Of a stretch of 37,097 nucleotides of DNA, positions 1,223 to 30,512 are shown in pieces. Origin of the DNA: a bacterium (GTDB taxonomy: Bacteria; Bacteroidota; Ignavibacteria; Kapaibacteriales; UBA2268). The stretch's first letter is position 1. The number at the start of each line of letters is the position of its first letter. The stretch covers positions 1-37,097 of the forward strand of contig JAUIIX010000029.1 in assembly GCA_030431515.1 (NCBI GenBank), in the 5' to 3' direction. The notes below the pieces were generated by a model. That model was not told the origin of the DNA. It did not search any database and saw nothing but the letters and a program-made list of their open reading frames with translations. The position numbers were made by a program, and so were the translations under genes.

Positions 1223-1260
1223 TAAAAAAAATCCAACACTTTATAAAAAAGTATTGGATT
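1223..1260 (-). terminator. Rho-independent terminator of the OmpA-like/WD40 operon
   Basis: On the minus strand, arms aatccaatactt and aagtgttggatt (12 bp, one G-U wobble) close a loop of about 7 nt and are followed by a run of T. It sits just downstream of the stop at 1293 and upstream of the protease start. Confidence 0.8.
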
Positions 1261-1292: not shown

Positions 1293-2000
1293 TTATTCAC
1301 CAATATTCACTATTTCAATATAGCAAGGTCCAACATATCTTTTACCTTTTGCAGCTTTTTCAGTTGGAGGTGGATTGTTAGGGTCAACATTCCCATTTCC
1401 TTCTGTTGCAAATCTACTAGCACCTATTCCTTTAGAAACAAAATATTCTTTAATTGCCTTAGACCTTTCTTCTGTAGTCTTTTTATTTTCTGAAGCATTT
1501 CCTTTCTGATCTGGGAATGATACAACTTTAAATGTAACTGTTGGATTATCATTAAACACATCAATCCAATCATCTAAATACAATTCAGATCCAAATCTTA
1601 ATTTTGATTTTCTCAATTCAAAAGGAGTAACAGCTATAGGAATTTGAACACCAGCTTTAAGCGGTTTAATCAAAAAATCCTGAGAAATTTCTAAATATTT
1701 ACCAGTATTAGGAACAGTTACTTTATACTTTTCAGTCATAAAGTTTTTCTTAGTGATCAAAACTTGGTAAGTTTGACCAGGTTTCAAGCCAGGAACAAAA
1801 TAAGCTCCATTTTGTGCTCCATTACTTCTGGCAGCACCTACTCTTCTCCCATCCATATCTAAAACTTTAATTACAGCAGTCTCAGGTAACTTATTAACTT
1901 GATTGAATACATTACCAGTCAATGCTACTGTAGCGTTAATTAGTCCTTGACTAAAACTAAGAGAACTAGCTAAAATTATTAATATTATTATCTTGTACAT
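1293..2000 (-). CDS. Secreted CRD + OmpA-like protein (possible half of a split PorE-like factor)
   Basis: This 235-residue protein has a signal peptide (MYKIIILIILASSLSFSQG). Residues about 22-115 look like a carboxypeptidase-regulatory/CNA-B-type beta-sandwich (TVALTGNVFNQ, SNGAQNGAYFVPGLKPGQTYQV). Residues about 125-235 look like an OmpA C-terminal domain: a D..G...N...TEERSKAIKEYFVSKGI segment holds the Asp and Arg positions that contact peptidoglycan in the family, and ASRFATEGNG follows. The domain is shorter than usual in its first helix. The start has an AAGGAA Shine-Dalgarno. It lies 8 bp downstream of a secreted WD40 gene, so the two are almost certainly co-transcribed. The CRD + OmpA order matches the C-terminal half of PorE, a T9SS component. 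The functional link is inference. Confidence 0.72.
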   Translation of the reverse strand: MYKIIILIILASSLSFSQGLINATVALTGNVFNQVNKLPETAVIKVLDMDGRRVGAARSNGAQNGAYFVPGLKPGQTYQVLITKKNFMTEKYKVTVPNTGKYLEISQDFLIKPLKAGVQIPIAVTPFELRKSKLRFGSELYLDDWIDVFNDNPTVTFKVVSFPDQKGNASENKKTTEERSKAIKEYFVSKGIGASRFATEGNGNVDPNNPPPTEKAAKGKRYVGPCYIEIVNIGE

Positions 2001-2008
2001 ATATTTCC

Positions 2009-2959
2009 TTATTTCTTTTTAACTAAAAATCTAACAGTACCATCTTGGCAACCTAACACAATCACAGATTGATCGCTAATCAAATCGACAGACCAAATCT
2101 CTACACCAGCATCAAATTCATAAATTAACTTACCTGTCATCGAGTCCCATAGTTTGATTTTTTTATCTAAACTCGCACTAACTATAGTTCTATCATCATT
2201 ATAAGCAAATGAAACGTCCTGAATTAATTCATCATGTGCTTTAATTGTTCTTAATAGCTGGCCATCAGGCATACTCCATATTTTGATATTACCATCTTGA
2301 TCAGTAGATGCTATTTTTTTAGAATCAAAACTAAATAAAACAGTTAAAACAGGAGCTTCGTGACCTAATAAAGTCATAATTGGCTCTTTAGTTTTCAAAT
2401 CCGTTGACCAGATTTTAATACTTTTATCATCAGAACAAGAAGCAATATAATCGCCATCGTAACTATAAGCAACGTTATTAATTGCTTCAGAGTGATCTCT
2501 CAAAGTTTTGATTTCTGTACCATATCTCCAATCCCATAACTTCACAGTTCTATCAAAACTTGTAGAAGCTACATAAGTAGAGCTATCATCTTGAGAAAAA
2601 TATACTCCAATAACTTGGTCAGTATGACCTTTTAATACTTTTAGTTGTTCACCACTTTTAACATCCCAAATTCTTACAGTTTGGTCAGAAGACCCAGAAG
2701 CAATATATTGGTCATTTCCAGAAAAAGAAAGGTTGTTTACTTGCCCCAAATGACCTTTCATTTGAATTAGCATTTTTCTATTTGGAATATCCCAAACTTT
2801 AATTGTCTCATCAAGACTACAAGTAGCTACTTTAGTGTCATCTTCGTTTACGAAAACACCAAGCACTTCATCGTCATGATTTCCAACTGTAATCATTTCA
2901 TATTCTACAGCAAAGACATTGCTTATAGATAATATTAGTAGTAAAAAGAAAAATTTCAT
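2009..2959 (-). CDS. Secreted seven-bladed WD40 beta-propeller protein
   Basis: This 316-residue protein has a signal peptide (MKFFFLLLILSISNVFA) and is then filled by seven WD40 repeats. Blade ends read IKVWD, VRIWD, VKLWD, IKIWS, IKIWS, IKLWD and, degenerate, VRFL. Preceding GH/H-D dyads such as MKGHLGQV, LKGHTDQV, RDHSEAI, LGHEAPV and KAHDELI are visible. Seven blades make a complete propeller, so the product appears full length with no enzymatic domain. The start is supported by GGAG about six bases upstream. It is the first gene of a two-gene unit with the CRD/OmpA-like gene 8 bp downstream. A periplasmic scaffold role is likely. With its neighbour it mirrors the domain set of PorE except for the TPR part. 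Confidence 0.85.
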   Translation of the reverse strand: MKFFFLLLILSISNVFAVEYEMITVGNHDDEVLGVFVNEDDTKVATCSLDETIKVWDIPNRKMLIQMKGHLGQVNNLSFSGNDQYIASGSSDQTVRIWDVKSGEQLKVLKGHTDQVIGVYFSQDDSSTYVASTSFDRTVKLWDWRYGTEIKTLRDHSEAINNVAYSYDGDYIASCSDDKSIKIWSTDLKTKEPIMTLLGHEAPVLTVLFSFDSKKIASTDQDGNIKIWSMPDGQLLRTIKAHDELIQDVSFAYNDDRTIVSASLDKKIKLWDSMTGKLIYEFDAGVEIWSVDLISDQSVIVLGCQDGTVRFLVKKK

Positions 2960-3035: not shown

Positions 3036-3404
3036 TTATAATTGTTTCAAATTAGCAGATAAATCTTTCAGAAACTTAATCGTTTCTTTGATCAAATTTT
3101 TATCAACACTAATAGAAGTATCCTTATCAAAGCTTTTGATTTTACCATCAATTATATTAAGATTATTTAATTTTTTATTATTATCAATTATTTCACGAGC
3201 AGTTAAAAGATTCATTTCAGAATCCCTCAAGAGTTCTTTTATTTTTTTTAGTAACTCTATATCTTTAGCATTATACTTTCTATTCCCCGCAGAATTTTTT
3301 TTTGGCTTCAAAGTTTTGAATTCTTTTTCCCAATATCGTAGTATATGTTGCTCCTCATCAAGCATCTCACTTACTTCACGAATAGAATAATACAGTTTTT
3401 GCAT
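3036..3404 (-). CDS. MerR-family transcriptional regulator
   Basis: This is a 122-residue protein. An N-terminal winged helix-turn-helix of MerR type is plain: YSIREVSEMLDEEQHILRYWEKEF, then LKPKKNSAGNRKYNAKDIELLKKIKELL. The LRYWE and NRKY signatures are characteristic. The C-terminal 50 residues are short, helical and lysine-rich, and contain no cysteine, so there is no visible metal- or drug-sensing domain. Such short MerR proteins are common in Bacteroidota and their targets are often unknown. It is divergent from rpoZ, with about 155 bp of shared upstream DNA. It ends about 75 bp before the WD40 gene, so co-transcription with that operon is possible. Confidence 0.85.
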   Translation of the reverse strand: MQKLYYSIREVSEMLDEEQHILRYWEKEFKTLKPKKNSAGNRKYNAKDIELLKKIKELLRDSEMNLLTAREIIDNNKKLNNLNIIDGKIKSFDKDTSISVDKNLIKETIKFLKDLSANLKQL

Positions 3405-3560: not shown

Positions 3561-3860
3561 ATGGCAAAATATATAGTAAACCCAATCGAAGTAAGAATGA
3601 TAGAATCTCAAAAGAGATCAATATATCAATCAATAGTAGCAATGGGTGTTCGTGCAAGACAAATTAACGCAGATGTAAAAAGCGAAATAATGGAGCAAAT
3701 GGAAGATATTGTTCCAACTGCAGATGACAATGAGATTGCAAATGCTGATCAGGTAAATATTAGCAAAAAATTTGAAATGATGCCAAAACCATCTTTTATT
3801 GCAATGAAAGAGATATTCGATGGCGACCTTGACTACGAATTACCTGTATTACCACAGTAA
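3561..3860 (+). CDS. rpoZ: DNA-directed RNA polymerase omega subunit
   Basis: This is a 99-residue protein of the Rpb6/omega superfamily. The core helix region IYQSIVAMGVRARQIN corresponds to the Y..vv...kRAnQI motif. The later KKFEMMPKPSFIAMKEIFDGDLDY matches the K.yE.lPKPtlIA..E...GkiyY segment typical of the Bacteroidota form. Omega binds the beta-prime subunit and helps assembly and ppGpp response; the role here is assigned from family knowledge. The gene has its own promoter and a strong terminator, so it is probably monocistronic. Confidence 0.85.
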   Translation: MAKYIVNPIEVRMIESQKRSIYQSIVAMGVRARQINADVKSEIMEQMEDIVPTADDNEIANADQVNISKKFEMMPKPSFIAMKEIFDGDLDYELPVLPQ

Positions 3861-7220: not shown

Positions 7221-9479
7221 CTAATTATTTAATTTTAAATATATCAACGGAATTAAAGCTAATATTATTAGTAAATAATACCAATCCCAAATAGGAATAT
7301 TAGCACTTACGGGGATTGATGGTCCACCTGGGTCATATATTACGCCGTTTACTTCGCCATCATAATCGCCAAGTCCACCGTCTATAAGTGTTAATATTGC
7401 ATAAGCAGTTCTTACCCCACTTAGCAATTCACTACCGAATACTACATTATCAAAGCCCTTATATGTTCCGTCTGGAAATAATTTTCTATATGAAAACCCT
7501 TCTAAACTTTCATATCCATGATAATATATTTTAACAGTAGCATTAGAAGCGTTTATTTTGAACTCTGTTATTCCAAATGGATAAGTGTATTCATCATCAC
7601 TTTTCGAGCTTACGCTTTCATCTGAAATTGTTGTACTATTGTCAGAAATTATTGTTAAATATGTTCCATCTTCATTTCTTGATAAAGTTGAGATATTATT
7701 TTGTAAAGAGTCTGGTATTCCATCTTGATTCCCATCATGTGGAATTTCATAACGTGTTCTAAAACTATAAACATTTCCATATCCTGTTCCTATACTATTT
7801 GTAGCATAAGATTTGAGATAGTATGTAGTACCAGCACTTAAACCAGACACATTTGAAACAAATGAACTTAACCCACTACCATCACTTGTAAAGCCACCGT
7901 TTGGAGCATTTCCTAATTCAAAAGTATTTGATGTACTCCATACAACTCCTTTACTAAGAATTGAAGAATTTCCATCATCACTTATAATTCCACCACTTGT
8001 TAAAGTATATTTGGTGATATTATTTACTAAATTTGTTGTTAATGTAGGTGGAAAAGTTTGCGAATATTTGAGCAGAAAAGCGTCAATACCACCTAATGAA
8101 GTTCTATTTGCAGTAGCAGCACTTGGGTCAAAATCTACAGTTCCAGCGAAATCACCACATAGAAATATATTTCTTGCATTATCTAAAACAACACTACGAC
8201 CGAGATCATTCCCTGAACCACCAACTTTGAAAGCTTGTTTAAATTCACCATCAAAATCATAAGTTGCAACAAAAACATCTGTTCCACCACTTGAAGTTAA
8301 ATTTGAAACACCAGTACCTAAGTCAAAATCTACAGTTCCAGCAAAACTTCCTGTAATATAGATATTACTAAAATTATCATTATAAATACTATGCCCATCA
8401 TCATTACTACTTGAGCCAATATTTTTTGCCCAATTCAAATTACCATCAGGTGTATAACTTGCAAAAATAATATCATTTCCACCATTAGATGTAAGATTGT
8501 ATGTTGAAGCACTTGGATCAAAGTCAATAGTATTTGTAAAATAACCTAAAATGAGTACATTTTCATCATCATCAAATTCAATTGCTCTTATGGATTCTGC
8601 ACCAGTAGAACTAAATGCATTTACCCATAGAAAATCACCATTACTATCATATTTGGCAACATAAGCATCGTTTCCACCAAGATTTGTAGCAGTTGTAACT
8701 CCTGCATCAGGATCAAAATCTAAATCTGCAGTAAAATGACCTGAAATATAAATTTGTCCTGAACTATTTGCTTTAATATCTACACCTGATTCACTTGAAG
8801 AAGAACCAATAACTTCTGCTAAAAGGAAATTTCCATTGTTGTCATATTTAGAAAAGAATATATCGTTACTACCTTTTCCAGCAATATTATATGAACCATT
8901 AGGATTAAAATTTGAAGTTCCTGCCATATATCCAATAACATAAATATTTCCATTCTCATCAATATCTAAATTGTTACAATAATCATATTGACTACCACCT
9001 ATATCATTTGCCCAAACAAAATTGCCATCACTATCATATTTTGCTACGAAACCATCAGTATTACTTGCAGAGCGAACATAAGTGGCTCCACTTGGATCGA
9101 AATCAATCGGATTATTAAAATAACCACTTACAATTACATCTCCATTAGGATCAATTCCAATATCTACTCCAGATTCTCCATTAGGTCCACCAATATTAAA
9201 AGCCCAAACGTAATTTCCATCACTGTCATATTTGGCAACATAAATATCAGATGATCCAATAGAGGTCAAATTATTTACACTAGCACTTGGATCAAAATCT
9301 ACAGTTCCTCTAAAAGAACCCGTTATATAAGAATTGCCATCGCTATCATAAGCAACAGCAGTTGCATATTCCGCATTAGAACTACCAATAGCATTTGCAA
9401 ATTCAAATATCTGTGTCGAGTTTGAAATTGTGGTACTAAAAAGTAAAACACAAATGTAAGTCAAAATTTTAGTTTTCAT
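7221..9479 (-). CDS. Surface SBBP-type beta-propeller protein with FN3-like domain and C-terminal membrane anchor
   Basis: This 752-residue protein has a signal peptide (MKTKILTYICVLLFSTTISN). Residues about 28-480 hold seven repeats of roughly 63 residues, each with G(S/N)YITGSF.GTVDFDPS and DIYVAKYDSDGNYVWA-type strands, typical of SBBP beta-propeller repeats. Seven copies fit one closed propeller. An FN3-like segment follows (about 480-575; KGVVWSTSNTFELG, LSAGTTYYLKSYATNS), then HDGNQDGIPDSLQNN and a region ending NGVIYDPGGP that resembles the choice-of-anchor U domain. The tail IPIWDWYY is followed by a hydrophobic helix (about 730-748) and ends KLNN. There is no T9SS sorting domain, unlike other surface proteins here. 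Function is unknown, probably cell-surface display. Confidence 0.8.
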   Translation of the reverse strand: MKTKILTYICVLLFSTTISNSTQIFEFANAIGSSNAEYATAVAYDSDGNSYITGSFRGTVDFDPSASVNNLTSIGSSDIYVAKYDSDGNYVWAFNIGGPNGESGVDIGIDPNGDVIVSGYFNNPIDFDPSGATYVRSASNTDGFVAKYDSDGNFVWANDIGGSQYDYCNNLDIDENGNIYVIGYMAGTSNFNPNGSYNIAGKGSNDIFFSKYDNNGNFLLAEVIGSSSSESGVDIKANSSGQIYISGHFTADLDFDPDAGVTTATNLGGNDAYVAKYDSNGDFLWVNAFSSTGAESIRAIEFDDDENVLILGYFTNTIDFDPSASTYNLTSNGGNDIIFASYTPDGNLNWAKNIGSSSNDDGHSIYNDNFSNIYITGSFAGTVDFDLGTGVSNLTSSGGTDVFVATYDFDGEFKQAFKVGGSGNDLGRSVVLDNARNIFLCGDFAGTVDFDPSAATANRTSLGGIDAFLLKYSQTFPPTLTTNLVNNITKYTLTSGGIISDDGNSSILSKGVVWSTSNTFELGNAPNGGFTSDGSGLSSFVSNVSGLSAGTTYYLKSYATNSIGTGYGNVYSFRTRYEIPHDGNQDGIPDSLQNNISTLSRNEDGTYLTIISDNSTTISDESVSSKSDDEYTYPFGITEFKINASNATVKIYYHGYESLEGFSYRKLFPDGTYKGFDNVVFGSELLSGVRTAYAILTLIDGGLGDYDGEVNGVIYDPGGPSIPVSANIPIWDWYYLLIILALIPLIYLKLNN

Positions 9480-24642: not shown

Positions 24643-27561
24643 TTACTTAACTATATTAATTTTATAAGTTTCACTTATATTATTGCTGTTAATTAGTAGT
24701 AAATAATTACCATTAGGGATTTCATTGAAAGTAAATTGTAAGTTGTAATACGCTGGATTAAAATTTTCAGATATAGAGAAATACTCTTCTCCTAAGTTAT
24801 TTATCAATTTAAAATTAATAACTCTATTAATATCATTGTTTATATTAATATTAATTTGATTTGTAGCTGGATTAGGGTAAGGAACAGATAAATTAAATGC
24901 TTTACTATTTACTTTTTTAAGTTCAATTTTCAAATCACAATTAGAATTTAATTCTCGATTTTTTTCAATTAATACTGAACTTAGAGGGTAACTATTTTCT
25001 ACGCAATCATTAAAATTTAATTTGATTGATTCATCAATTCCTTTATAATTTTCCGAATCAAAGCAAACAACTAATTTTGCTTGTGATTTTGCTTTAACTA
25101 ATAATGGAAATTGAGAAATAGGTATTGAGTAATTTATATTCTCTTCAAAAGTATAATTATCAAAAATAAAATCTCTTTCACTTTTATTATAAAATGTTAT
25201 TGAATCACATCTGTAAGTATCGATCATAATATCTTCAAAAGTATATTCATTATTTTCTTCTAACTCTAATACTAATCCACCGATAGAGCCAGTTATATTG
25301 ACTTCATTATTTGCAGAATCAATAGCAATTATCTCATAGTATCCATTTTGAAAAATATCATCTAATTGTAGTTTTACTTCATATTGATTGTTTACAATCG
25401 TAGCTGATTCAACAATATTATCTAATTGGATATATTTTATTTCTTGTAATCCAAAGTCAATGTCTTCATTATCCGTTATAATCAATAAATCATAAAAATC
25501 TTCACATTCTTCAAAATTACTTAGCTCATATTGGGGATTTAAATTATCTTTCCAAATCCTTATTAATGAATCCTGTGTCTTTTCTTGAAAACAATCGTGA
25601 TCTAATTCTGAAACAAATGTTAGTTCATCAAAATCAGCATAAGATTCTTTTTCTATTTTTAGATTTAAAATTACATCTTCACCTGGATTAATGGTCGCTG
25701 GTGGATTATCAATAAGTAATAATCTATTATCCAATTTTAACTTTAATTTCTGGGTAAATTTTCCATAATTATTTACTTTTAATTTCAAGTAATAATCATT
25801 AATTGCTCTTTGACCTTTGTCAGGTATGTCTGGCAGAATGAATTCTTGAGACAGAGTGAAACCAGGAATATCAATAGTATCAGAAGAGTATAAACCAAAT
25901 TTATCATAAATTCTATAAGTAACATATCCATCTTGGTAGGGGTCAACTAAACTAAATATTGATTTAGCATTATCTAAAGAATCACCATTCAAATTATCAT
26001 TATATTTTATATTTTCATTATCTAAAATCATAATACTATCTAAACCAGAATCATAATTATTTAACTCAGAAAAATCAATTTCATAATTATCACAATTACT
26101 TTTTCCTTTTATCCCTGGCGGATTATGATCAAGTATTCTTAATTTCAATCCACCACCTACACTACCGTAACTATTAGCATATCCATAGCCATAAGAGTAA
26201 CATAATATTGGGTCAGCCGAACTAACTAAATGTGTTCCTAAATTAACTGGGATATGAGCATAAACATATTCTGTGTTGTGAATCTTTACAAAATTCAAAT
26301 TAGAAGGCAATGGCTTAAAGTCTAATAAAGTATTAACTATTGATTCTTGTTTTAATACGATTGTAATAAAATGTTCATTATAAATTCTGGAGTGAAGTCC
26401 ATTCCCAATTTCTTCATAAGCTTGGAAATTAATAACTTTATAAGTTTGGTAAAACTGTTGAATTGGAGGATTCACAAGCAAAAAAGGGTCTCCAGTTTCT
26501 TTATTGCCAAAATCATCCGCAAATCCTGAACGTCTTATAGAATAAACATAGGAAGTCTTACTTGTTTTAATATGATATGCTTTGTCAATATCTGCTTCAA
26601 AAAACTCACCTTTACTCAAAGTCTTAAAGTACTTATCATTCAAATAAACTTCAGTATCATCAAAATATGCAATTACTCTAAATTTAGAATGTATATCTCC
26701 ATAACTATTATTTTGAAATGGTGTTACTAAATATTCAATTCCAGAAGTTTCGAAAGGACTCATCTGAGTAACTAAATAATCTCTCGAGTTTGTACTGGTA
26801 TAAGGTACACTCGTTCTTTCAACACCAGAAAACACTGCGAAATTTTTATCACCTTCTACTTCTGTACCAGTTAAATCTTCTCCTCCTCCAAAATCCTTAG
26901 CACGAGCATAATATACTTCACCTTTATTTAAAGTAATATTTACATCTTTCATATCGCTTTTAGATAATTCAGCAGTTGGTTTTATAGTAATCTTTGTGTT
27001 ATCTTCACTTGCAACTATAGAAAAATGGGAAGCTCTATGAGTTAATCCTACTTCATAAATTGAGCTATAACATGCTAAGATATACTTTTTCCCAGTTGCT
27101 TTGGTTGGATAAACTAACATTCCATCGCTTGACCATTTAGCTTGGTTATGTCCTAAAACAGTAATTTCCTCATCTGATTCTATATGTATAGACATTTTGT
27201 TTGCATTCTGAATATATTCAATGCCATTTCCAAACCTATGATTATCTTTATCTTGAGCAGGAATTTCAAAGTCATACCAAGGAATACCAAATGTTTCATA
27301 TTGAAGAACTTCATTAATCCTGATTGTTTTTTTAAACTCTTTACCTTCATAATTCCAATAAGTAAACCTAACATCTGTTGGTACATTAGAAGCAAAAAAT
27401 ATAAATAACGAATCTCTTTCTCTATCTTTTTTATCAAAGTCATTTATATTAACATGAGCATTCGGAGGAAAAGTAAGCCAAAAGTCTTTTCCCTGTGTTT
27501 CTGATTCTTGAGCAACTAAATTAAATTGCAAGATAAACGATATGATTAAGTTAATTATCAT
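24643..27561 (-). CDS. Giant secreted protein with IgGFc-binding-like N-terminus and T9SS sorting domain (paralogue B)
   Basis: This is a 972-residue protein with a signal peptide (MIINLIISFILQFNLVAQES). The N-terminal half resembles the IgGFc-binding domain family (TQGKDFWLTFPPNAHVN; VLGHNQAKWSSDGMLVYPTK; KYILACYSS; LTGTEVEGDKNFAVFSG; CYSYGYGYANSYGSVGGGLK). The middle carries Ig-like beta domains. The last 85 residues are a type A T9SS sorting domain (PYPNPATNQINININ; NGNYLLLINSNNISETYKIN). It would be exported by T9SS and attached to the surface. The family name comes from human FCGBP and does not show IgG binding here. Its ATG overlaps the stop of the upstream paralogue by four bases (27558-27561). 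Confidence 0.85.
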   Translation of the reverse strand: MIINLIISFILQFNLVAQESETQGKDFWLTFPPNAHVNINDFDKKDRERDSLFIFFASNVPTDVRFTYWNYEGKEFKKTIRINEVLQYETFGIPWYDFEIPAQDKDNHRFGNGIEYIQNANKMSIHIESDEEITVLGHNQAKWSSDGMLVYPTKATGKKYILACYSSIYEVGLTHRASHFSIVASEDNTKITIKPTAELSKSDMKDVNITLNKGEVYYARAKDFGGGEDLTGTEVEGDKNFAVFSGVERTSVPYTSTNSRDYLVTQMSPFETSGIEYLVTPFQNNSYGDIHSKFRVIAYFDDTEVYLNDKYFKTLSKGEFFEADIDKAYHIKTSKTSYVYSIRRSGFADDFGNKETGDPFLLVNPPIQQFYQTYKVINFQAYEEIGNGLHSRIYNEHFITIVLKQESIVNTLLDFKPLPSNLNFVKIHNTEYVYAHIPVNLGTHLVSSADPILCYSYGYGYANSYGSVGGGLKLRILDHNPPGIKGKSNCDNYEIDFSELNNYDSGLDSIMILDNENIKYNDNLNGDSLDNAKSIFSLVDPYQDGYVTYRIYDKFGLYSSDTIDIPGFTLSQEFILPDIPDKGQRAINDYYLKLKVNNYGKFTQKLKLKLDNRLLLIDNPPATINPGEDVILNLKIEKESYADFDELTFVSELDHDCFQEKTQDSLIRIWKDNLNPQYELSNFEECEDFYDLLIITDNEDIDFGLQEIKYIQLDNIVESATIVNNQYEVKLQLDDIFQNGYYEIIAIDSANNEVNITGSIGGLVLELEENNEYTFEDIMIDTYRCDSITFYNKSERDFIFDNYTFEENINYSIPISQFPLLVKAKSQAKLVVCFDSENYKGIDESIKLNFNDCVENSYPLSSVLIEKNRELNSNCDLKIELKKVNSKAFNLSVPYPNPATNQINININNDINRVINFKLINNLGEEYFSISENFNPAYYNLQFTFNEIPNGNYLLLINSNNISETYKINIVK

Positions 27562-30512
27562 TTATTTATTATGAATTTCCGTGTTATTCTTTGTTTTTCA
27601 AATTCAAATATAATGTCATAAGTACCATTATTCAAATTTGTAACATCTATTTCTAATATAAACAGACCTTGACCTATTTTTATTGTATTCTGATCTACTA
27701 TATTTCCATTCAAATCCAATATGTAATATTTCAAATCACTTTCAAAGATGGAAGATAATTCGATATTCAATTGATTTTGAACAGGATTAGGATATACATC
27801 TCCAAATCCCTCAAATTTTGCTTTCTCTTTAAGTACTAATTTCAAATTACATTTTGAATTGGTTTCATTAATCTCTCTAATAATAAATGATTCCATCGGT
27901 ATTTTAGTATCAATACATAGTGCATTTAATACTAAAGTGTCTAATTCCAATATTCCTAAATTAGGAGAACTTAGACATAATTCTAATTTAACACTATCTT
28001 TTGGTAATATTGTTAAAGGAAATTGACTAAATGGAATTGAAAATTCTTCATTATTTATTAAATTGTAATTATAATAAGTAATTGCGTAATCACCATAATT
28101 ATATATCGGCAGTAAATAACAATCATTAAAGTTTTTAGTAATATTCCCGAAATCTACGCTTGCACTTCTTTGGTTTTCCTCTCCAAATCCAAGGGTATGT
28201 CCTGGGATTACTCTTTCAAATGTATTAACAAAACCAGCAGAATCTTCTACTTCGATACTAATAAGTGCATCTTGATAAGGGTCAATAACTTGAAAAGTAT
28301 AATCCATATTGAAAGTATTATTTTTTTTATTAATTACTTCAATATTTAAAGATTCAATTACTCTAAATTCTTTAATTCCATAATCAAAGTCATCAGATTC
28401 AGTGATTGATAAATTTATACTTCTATCACAATCACTTGCATTAGCAAGTACTCTTGGAGCTTCGCTATCTTTATTAACATCAATATTTAAATTAATTCTC
28501 TCCTCTTGTTCGCAATCGGTTTTCAAATCGAGTTCAAGTTTATATTCACCTAATTTATCTTTGGTATCAAAACATATTTCAATAGTTGCTTCTTCACCTG
28601 CTTTCAAATTCATCGGAAAAGTATAATCAACTGTAAATAGCCCAACATCACCTCTTAATTCTAAGTTATCAATCCTTTTGTCAAAGATTCCATAATTCTT
28701 AACAGTATATTTCTTACAGAAATTCTTATTATCAGGATATTTATAATTTTCATTTATTAAACTATTCACAGTATCAATACTAAATGTAAAACCTTTAATT
28801 TGATATGTCTCAATTACTTCTTCACCTGATTTATCTGAAGTAGTTAAAGTAAATTCACCATCTTGATATTTATCGATTAAAGATGCTTTAAAAGTTCCAA
28901 GACTTGAGTCAGCATTAATATTTTGAGTAAAATTAATATTAGTATCATCTAATATGCTGATTTCCTCTAAGTTCTCATCGGTAACAGTTCCATTTATTTC
29001 GTAGCAATCAGAAATAGAAGCTATTGTAGGTGCTTTATTTTCTAAGTTTTTAAGACCCAAGCCACCAACATATCCATAACTATTTGCCACTCCGTACCCA
29101 TAAGAAGTTATACCAAAAGTAGTATCTGCTTCAACTAATTTTGTACCAGGGCTTACTCTTATCTGTGCATAAGAAAAAGTGCTATTTGGAACATTATTCC
29201 AAGTTTGGTTAGTTACTAATACTCCATTTATTTTTAAAGTATTTTTAAAATCATTTTCAATTACTACATTTATATAATGTTCTGTGAAAACGGTAGATTC
29301 ACGATACGACCACCCAGATCTTTCTGTTTCGGTAGTTGACGGACTAATTGTCTTATATTTTTTTAAATATTGTTCTTTAGGCGGAACAATCATCATAAAT
29401 GGATCACCAATCTTTAGAAAGTATGCACTTGATGCTTGAGATTTACAATACTGCACTACGCTAATCACATTATTTGAAGTAATATTTAAAGGATTAGAAT
29501 CAAAAATATCATAATATTCCCCTTTAGACAAGGTTTTTACTAAATTACCATTTACAAATACCTCAGTATTATCATAAGCCGCTATAATACGAGTAACATC
29601 TTCACCTAATCTATTTTCAAAATTTTTCTGAACAAATGGAATAGAAAAAGCACTTTTGCCCCATTTATCAATCGGTATATTTTGCGATAATAAATGATCT
29701 CTACTATCTCCTTCTCTCTCTATGGGTACTTTTGCTCTTAGTTGACTACCTATCACTACAATATTTTTATCAGCATAAACAATTGTCCCTGTCAAATCTA
29801 TAATATCATTGCCTACTTCTGATTGAACTAAATAAGTTTCACCTTTATTTAATATAACTCTTTGAATTTGACCTTTCAATTTTTGTGTTTTAGTAGATGG
29901 AGTAATAGTTATATCAGTATTATCCTCTGTACCAATCAATATAAACTGCGATGGTGTACTTGCTCTTGAAGAAAAATTTGAATTATAAGCGGCAACAATA
30001 TAATTTTTTCCTAATGAATTAACAGGAAATAACAAAGTACCATCTGATGATTTTGTTGCTTGATTCATAATTGTAACTGTTACATCTTTTTCAGAGACTA
30101 AATGCCACGAAAGATTACTTACTACTTCATTATGGTTTGTATTTCTTAAAGGATGACTATTCTCATCATCAAACCTATCGTAATCTTTTACAAACTTATA
30201 CGAAATCATTTCAAAATCCCAAAAAGAATTTGCAATAGTATATATTTCATCTGGATTAGTTATATTAAAGGTAAAAGTCTTTGAATTTCCAAAAATATCA
30301 TTTACTTCAATATAACCTGAAGTAGCTTCTTCTGCCGCAATGAATACATATAAACTATCAGCAAGGCTTAATCTATCAGAATCTGAAAATATATTTGTAT
30401 GAAAATTAGGTGGAAATGCAAAATAAAACTCTTTCCCAGAACTTGAAATTTCCTGTGAATACGAATTATAAGACATAATCGTCAATATTAAAATCAGTAA
30501 TTTTATTATCAT
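27558..30512 (-). CDS. Giant secreted protein with IgGFc-binding-like N-terminus and T9SS sorting domain (paralogue A)
   Basis: This is a 984-residue protein with a signal peptide (MIIKLLILILTIMSYNSYSQ). It shares layout and many motifs with the next gene: SSGKEFYFAFPPNFHTNIF; MNQATKSSDGTLLFPVNSLG; IDLTGTIVYADKNIVVIGSQ; SYGYGVANSYGYVGGLGLKN. Ig-like and choice-of-anchor-like beta regions follow. The C-terminal T9SS type A sorting domain begins VYPNPVQNQLNIELSS and ends with a basic strand (RITRKFIINK). The two genes arose by tandem duplication and are co-transcribed with an ATGA overlap. The start codon lies only 12 bp from the divergent methyltransferase start. A surface adhesin or matrix role is inferred. 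Confidence 0.85.
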   Translation of the reverse strand: MIIKLLILILTIMSYNSYSQEISSSGKEFYFAFPPNFHTNIFSDSDRLSLADSLYVFIAAEEATSGYIEVNDIFGNSKTFTFNITNPDEIYTIANSFWDFEMISYKFVKDYDRFDDENSHPLRNTNHNEVVSNLSWHLVSEKDVTVTIMNQATKSSDGTLLFPVNSLGKNYIVAAYNSNFSSRASTPSQFILIGTEDNTDITITPSTKTQKLKGQIQRVILNKGETYLVQSEVGNDIIDLTGTIVYADKNIVVIGSQLRAKVPIEREGDSRDHLLSQNIPIDKWGKSAFSIPFVQKNFENRLGEDVTRIIAAYDNTEVFVNGNLVKTLSKGEYYDIFDSNPLNITSNNVISVVQYCKSQASSAYFLKIGDPFMMIVPPKEQYLKKYKTISPSTTETERSGWSYRESTVFTEHYINVVIENDFKNTLKINGVLVTNQTWNNVPNSTFSYAQIRVSPGTKLVEADTTFGITSYGYGVANSYGYVGGLGLKNLENKAPTIASISDCYEINGTVTDENLEEISILDDTNINFTQNINADSSLGTFKASLIDKYQDGEFTLTTSDKSGEEVIETYQIKGFTFSIDTVNSLINENYKYPDNKNFCKKYTVKNYGIFDKRIDNLELRGDVGLFTVDYTFPMNLKAGEEATIEICFDTKDKLGEYKLELDLKTDCEQEERINLNIDVNKDSEAPRVLANASDCDRSINLSITESDDFDYGIKEFRVIESLNIEVINKKNNTFNMDYTFQVIDPYQDALISIEVEDSAGFVNTFERVIPGHTLGFGEENQRSASVDFGNITKNFNDCYLLPIYNYGDYAITYYNYNLINNEEFSIPFSQFPLTILPKDSVKLELCLSSPNLGILELDTLVLNALCIDTKIPMESFIIREINETNSKCNLKLVLKEKAKFEGFGDVYPNPVQNQLNIELSSIFESDLKYYILDLNGNIVDQNTIKIGQGLFILEIDVTNLNNGTYDIIFEFEKQRITRKFIINK

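Follow-up and report, generated by a model that had tools for sequence, protein, structure and literature searches.

The gene pair described here is a real and deeply conserved two-gene periplasmic module, in which the theme of a propeller, a carboxypeptidase-regulatory-like domain (CRD), and an OmpA domain recurs with a non-homologous propeller supplied in trans. Literature searches found no description of such a WD40/CRD-OmpA pair. Both genes lie on the minus strand of the analyzed stretch of 37,097 nucleotides (hereafter, the window): the first, of 316 codons, encodes a WD40 propeller (2009..2959; PF00400), and the second, of 235 codons, encodes a CRD followed by an OmpA_C domain (1293..2000; PF00691, PF13620, and NF052230). 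The preliminary description of a secreted seven-blade propeller and a separate secreted CRD/OmpA protein, encoded 8 bp apart with the propeller gene at the 5' side, is confirmed by the agreement of open reading frames, Pfam matches, and AlphaFold2 models. By inspection, both proteins start with Sec-type signal peptides (MKFFFLLLILSISNVFA, followed by VEY, and MYKIIILIILASSLSFS, followed by QGL). Neither of the two window proteins has a lipobox cysteine, and a lipobox-like motif occurs in one of 30 members of each family. No T9SS sorting domain was detected in the WD40 or the CRD-OmpA protein.

The 3' end of the two-gene unit is marked by a hairpin resembling an intrinsic terminator (1230..1260, minus strand), with 13 pairs and a subsequent T run; two hairpins of this type were found in the scanned region against 0.6 expected from shuffles. 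According to a Pfam scan of the window, the nearest genes around the pair encode a MerR-type regulator, an rpoZ-like protein, and an S8 peptidase. The MerR gene (3036..3404, minus strand; PF13411, E 2e-18) is located upstream of the WD40 gene, on the same strand and at a distance of 76 bp, and possibly belongs to the same transcription unit. The rpoZ-like (Rpb6/omega) gene (3561-3860, plus strand) is divergent from it. Further away, the window encodes a 752-aa SBBP-repeat protein with a choice-of-anchor U domain at its end (7221-9479, minus strand).

The 316-aa protein is a canonical, WDR5-like WD40 propeller. It matches PF00400 with E 2e-61, and its AlphaFold2 model (pLDDT 94.6) contains 28 strands, that is, seven blades of four, starting right after the signal peptide. 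The closest solved folds are 2ymu (Z 45), the WD40 domain of PkwA (5yzv), and WDR5, all at Z 43-45. None of the NCBIfam models matches the protein, including NF052230 and TIGR02800. A comparison of its profile with the PD40 propellers of fused PorE-like proteins likewise gave no match (hhalign probability 0.3%). TPR repeats were not matched by Pfam in either chain of the pair; in the AlphaFold2 models, which were predicted as single chains, everything past the signal peptides is occupied by the propeller, the CRD, and the OmpA domain.

The 235-aa protein (pLDDT 92.5) consists of two domains. The CRD, of the transthyretin-like (TTR-like) type (approximately residues 25-115; 1656..1928, minus strand), is matched in VIA by the TTR-like domain of carboxypeptidase D (5aq0_B; Z 12.5, 80 residues, 1.6 A), and in Pfam by PF13620 with E 8.5e-5, which is under the gathering score. 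The OmpA_C peptidoglycan-binding domain (approximately residues 116-235; 1296..1655, minus strand) is matched by PF00691 (E 1.6e-9) and by OmpA_C structures (VIA Z 12-14). The best NCBIfam match of the whole protein is NF052230 (T9SS_PorE; E 6e-21, model positions 422-600), with a score of 74 bits, below the NCBI cut-off of 600; the same model is matched by all 30 examined members of the CRD-OmpA family. Aligned with a profile built from eight PorE-like fusion proteins, the CRD-OmpA profile gave E 6e-28 over 200 columns (hhalign 99.8%). The structural likeness to the CRD-OmpA part of PorE, on which the preliminary description depended, is present: both Foldseek and phmmer rank the C-terminal domain of PorE (6TOP) first for the protein, although on VIA-align Z this domain stands level with other OmpA_C domains. 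Judged by sequence, the CRD-OmpA protein is thus a homolog, by descent, of the C-terminal half of PorE.

In PorE, the stem peptide of peptidoglycan is contacted by Asp576, Asn584, and Arg591 (PMC7192894). The window protein has Asp164, Asn172, and Arg179 at the corresponding positions, with the same spacing of 8 and 15 (1464..1511, minus strand). Among 30 members of the family, Asp164 and Arg179 are present in all, and Asn172 in 29. Retention of this contact triad makes anchoring to peptidoglycan plausible.

Orthologs of the WD40 protein (55-81% identical) were found in 44 of 60 sampled relatives. The CRD-OmpA gene lies directly 3' of the WD40 gene and on the same strand for 48 of the 50 WD40 copies in these 44 genomes; two copies are exceptions, of which the one on contig C203 of genome G008 is fragmentary and lies at the end of a contig. 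Three genomes (G016, G022, and G027) contain two complete pairs each, which indicates that the pair was duplicated as a unit. A single-sequence scan of genome contigs with the 235-aa protein gave no matches; a search with a profile of the WD40 alignment alone gave instead 24 further, clearly orthologous loci (some of the records being genomes already in the sample of 60 relatives), and a CRD-OmpA partner is present in all 24. These loci are filed as Kapaibacterium, Kapabacteria, Ignavibacteria/Ignavibacteriae, Bacteroidetes, Chlorobi, and, once, Parcubacteria. The last of these is a contig of Parcubacteria GW2011_GWA2_43_11 (L076, LCFC01000031.1), for which misbinning is likelier than transfer because its WD40 protein is 71% identical to that of the window.

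The adjacency held over nine family-level groups, with a mean pairwise identity of 68% for the WD40 protein, 43% for the CRD, and 46% for the OmpA domain, which indicates that the pair is highly constrained. In a sample of 296 genomes of the phylum, WD40 scores reach 347 bits or more within the order and at most 212 bits outside it, and CRD-OmpA scores 215 bits or more within and at most 122 bits outside. The pair appears to be limited to this single order, which is most probably the Kapaibacteriales (NCBI taxonomy: Eximiradiales). No fusion of the WD40 and CRD-OmpA proteins was seen, nor did any long frame in the 296 genomes contain a WD40 match at the level of the orthologs (at least 347 bits). 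A WD40 protein of 320-370 aa (approximately 1e-44 to the profile) is encoded in many sampled genomes of one other family (f28, genera g94 and g99), with no CRD-OmpA partner detected.

The pair was not detected in 16 of the 60 relatives, some of which are incomplete; in one genome (G012), a piece of the CRD-OmpA gene coding for 89 aa was found at a fragmented locus. It appears to be truly absent from at least g3, g20, g31, g33, and G023 (92-100% completeness). Since good genomes of several lineages do without it, the pair is dispensable within the order.

Beyond the pair itself, the MerR gene is the only neighbor conserved across the order. Of 26 comparison loci, 16 have it at the corresponding position, and several of the remainder are cut off by a contig end. 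A frequent gene order is an rpoZ-like gene diverging from MerR, WD40, and CRD-OmpA, and the divergent rpoZ-like/MerR arrangement stands beside the pair in six comparison loci.

Shared regulation, perhaps by the upstream MerR protein, could by itself keep together the genes of two independent envelope proteins that form no physical complex. The frequent presence of the MerR gene would fit such an explanation, as would the existence of CRD-OmpA paralogs that stand alone, without a WD40 gene. It is nevertheless quite unlikely, given that the adjacency extends across nine family-level groups, that the pair was duplicated as a unit, and that Asp164, elsewhere invariant, is lost from CRD-OmpA copies that stand alone. 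This residue is present in all 42 compared copies beside a WD40 gene and in five of nine solitary paralogs; Arg196 is present in 42/42 paired copies and in three of the nine solitary ones, which are related to each other and hence do not represent nine independent events. Arg179 is kept in all 42 copies adjoining a WD40 gene. The pattern of Asp164 and Arg196 suggests that the paired copies are under a constraint that the solitary copies escape, and the triad, invariant beside WD40 and decayed without it, connects binding to the wall with the propeller being there. One of the solitary paralogs (L160; 6187-6870, minus strand of contig C115) is encoded in the window's own genome (G000); it is 37% identical, has no WD40 neighbor, and forms one subclade with several other solitary paralogs, in which the peptidoglycan-contacting Asp is often altered.

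Some lineages show additional genes at the locus. In family f3, an extra exported CRD-like gene (138-174 aa), barely detected by Pfam, is inserted between the WD40 and CRD-OmpA genes (e.g., L169 4053-4469, plus strand; also L087 and L170), which suggests that a CRD-type module is able to act in trans. Genes for outer-membrane barrels occur 3' of the pair in some lineages (L195 6760-8391, L074 6622-8232, and L071 6789-7589, all on the plus strand). By Pfam, the L195 protein is POTRA/Omp85-like (540 aa) and that of L071 is OMP_b-brl; the L074 homolog of the L195 protein has no Pfam match. Such barrel proteins are possible clients of the pair. A gene for an ABC-type ATPase (cluster 5) is located directly or nearly directly 3' of the pair in L067, L068, L070, L073, L074, and L075; it is often accompanied by a substrate-binding or permease-like protein, and the copy in G020 matches Pfam ABC_tran.

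The preliminary description interpreted the pair as a split PorE, i.e., a part of the type IX secretion system (T9SS) whose propeller and CRD-OmpA part, as separate chains, would tether the system to peptidoglycan. The PorE ancestry of the CRD-OmpA half stands, and the order of parts (propeller, CRD, OmpA) is the same as in PorE; for the propeller half the interpretation fails, as it is a canonical WD40 domain with no profile match to the propellers of PorE-like proteins. The PorE propeller belongs to PF07676 according to Heath et al. (PMC5053529), and the pair, its propeller being of the WD40 and not of the PD40 type, does not represent a PorE divided into two chains. The expectation that the genome would encode no complete PorE elsewhere largely failed as well: at least four fused propeller-CRD-OmpA proteins coexist with the pair in this genome (two copies on contig C125, and others on C119 and C47), and a fused PD40-CRD-OmpA protein is present in 58 of the 60 relatives (E 1e-50). 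The fused proteins of the window's genome carry PF07676, and none scores above the NCBI cut-off for PorE. In those checked, Pfam detects no TPR even at E 10, although the fused protein on C138 may contain a divergent one. The fused propeller-CRD-OmpA architecture thus clearly accompanies the pair, while a full PorE with all four domains is not strictly established for this genome.

A T9SS is present in all relatives, as judged by SprA, which was used as the marker (the GldM model, TIGR03517, matched nothing, controls included). SprA was found in 60/60 genomes, among them the 16 in which no pair was detected; the pair is therefore dispensable for having a T9SS. The presence of the system had earlier been expected from four window proteins with T9SS sorting domains; among the 20 proteins scanned, only two match TIGR04183 (NCBIfam), at 30.4 bits (cut-off 23) and at 20.6 bits, the latter below the cut-off. 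These two are adjacent large proteins of 972 and 984 aa (24643-30512, minus strand), whose T9SS type A sorting domains range from weak to clear. The comparison loci show no conserved T9SS gene beside the pair. The sprA gene lies approximately 1.7 kb from the pair in G005 (C114) and approximately 8.4 kb from it in G020 (C7); no such proximity is seen in the remaining genomes that have the two on a single contig. This proximity would favor a role in the T9SS, but sprA in G005 is convergent and not co-directional with the pair. With neither TPR nor lipidation in addition, a split T9SS component is very improbable. The label "split PorE" is to be dropped; the accurate name is "PorE-type wall anchor paired with a WD40 propeller".

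The favored interpretation, with chances evenly balanced, is a two-protein periplasmic module in which the peptidoglycan-bound CRD-OmpA protein holds, in trans, a WD40 docking platform for an envelope partner. Both proteins would be exported by Sec and retained in the periplasm, consistent with their signal peptides and with the finding of no T9SS sorting domain in either. The OmpA_C domain of the small protein is predicted, with good support from homology and its intact triad, to bind the diaminopimelate stem peptide of peptidoglycan. The CRD or an adjoining face may then hold the WD40 propeller in trans, as suggested by the order-wide pairing of the genes and by the layout of PorE. Fixed to the wall in this way, the propeller could offer a docking platform to a partner in the envelope, which would probably be an outer-membrane protein. 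As neither protein is a lipoprotein, nothing was seen that attaches the putative complex to the outer membrane.

Such a module bears on the question of what connects the outer membrane of Bacteroidota to the cell wall in the absence of a recognizable Tol-Pal system. It has been reported that Bacteroidetes have no identifiable tol-pal loci, PorE has been proposed to act as a fused CpoB-TolB-Pal tether, CRD-type domains have been implicated in contact with TonB, and further systems connecting the outer membrane and the wall have been argued to await discovery (PMC12204202). The pair constitutes a sharply defined, non-lipidated two-gene tether candidate, whose parts can be produced and tested separately. 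Full-length PorE and the PorE propeller were insoluble (PMC7192894). The pair could also show whether placing a propeller on a CRD-OmpA anchor is a general design, one into which an unrelated propeller family can be built.

The TolB-Pal system resembles the pair in its gene order, an exported propeller being followed by a peptidoglycan-binding OmpA_C protein. By analogy, the pair might represent a Tol-Pal-like stabilizer of the outer membrane, with the WD40 protein in the place of TolB, the CRD-OmpA protein in the place of Pal, and the CRD possibly touching a TonB-like protein. The published absence of tol-pal and the CRD-TonB contacts would agree with this, as does the lack of TolB (TIGR02800) and Pal (TIGR02802) matches above cut-off in the 60 genomes, in which search the E. 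coli and Caulobacter controls pass. Such a role is nevertheless unlikely: several lineages without the pair also lack TolB and Pal, and the fused PD40-CRD-OmpA proteins, present in nearly all relatives, would fit the role of a general tether better. The proteins themselves also differ. TolB is six-bladed and has an N-terminal domain, while the window propeller is seven-bladed without such a domain; Pal is a lipoprotein without a CRD, while the window protein is non-lipidated and has one (its score against TIGR02802 is 20.7 bits, with a cut-off of 125.35). TolB is not among the fold matches of the propeller, although the lists are filled by WD40 chains and hence give no evidence of a differing fold. 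Without lipidation and without a TolB fold, the pair is not a member of Tol-Pal. It seems doubtful, too, that it is an independently assembled counterpart, i.e., a force-transmitting or outer-membrane-stabilizing device made of a PorE-derived CRD-OmpA anchor and a WD40 protein recruited in trans.

In its layout, the pair is like TolB-Pal, or like a PorE with a replaced and detached propeller, and is a member of neither. With PorE of Porphyromonas gingivalis (PG1058) it shares the succession of CRD and OmpA_C, the three peptidoglycan-contact residues, and a propeller in the set. PorE, however, is a single lipidated chain with TPR and a PD40 propeller, whereas the pair consists of two non-lipidated chains without TPR and with a propeller of another family. 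The fused proteins of the same genome have a CRD-OmpA half homologous to that of the window protein; they are longer, with varied N-termini, and carry a PD40 propeller in the same chain, in contrast to the separate WD40 protein of the pair. The seven-bladed fold is common to the window propeller and to 2ymu, the PkwA WD40 domain, and WDR5. Propellers of this type are mostly cytoplasmic or embedded within larger proteins, whereas that of the window is exported, and its gene is paired with that of a predicted peptidoglycan binder.
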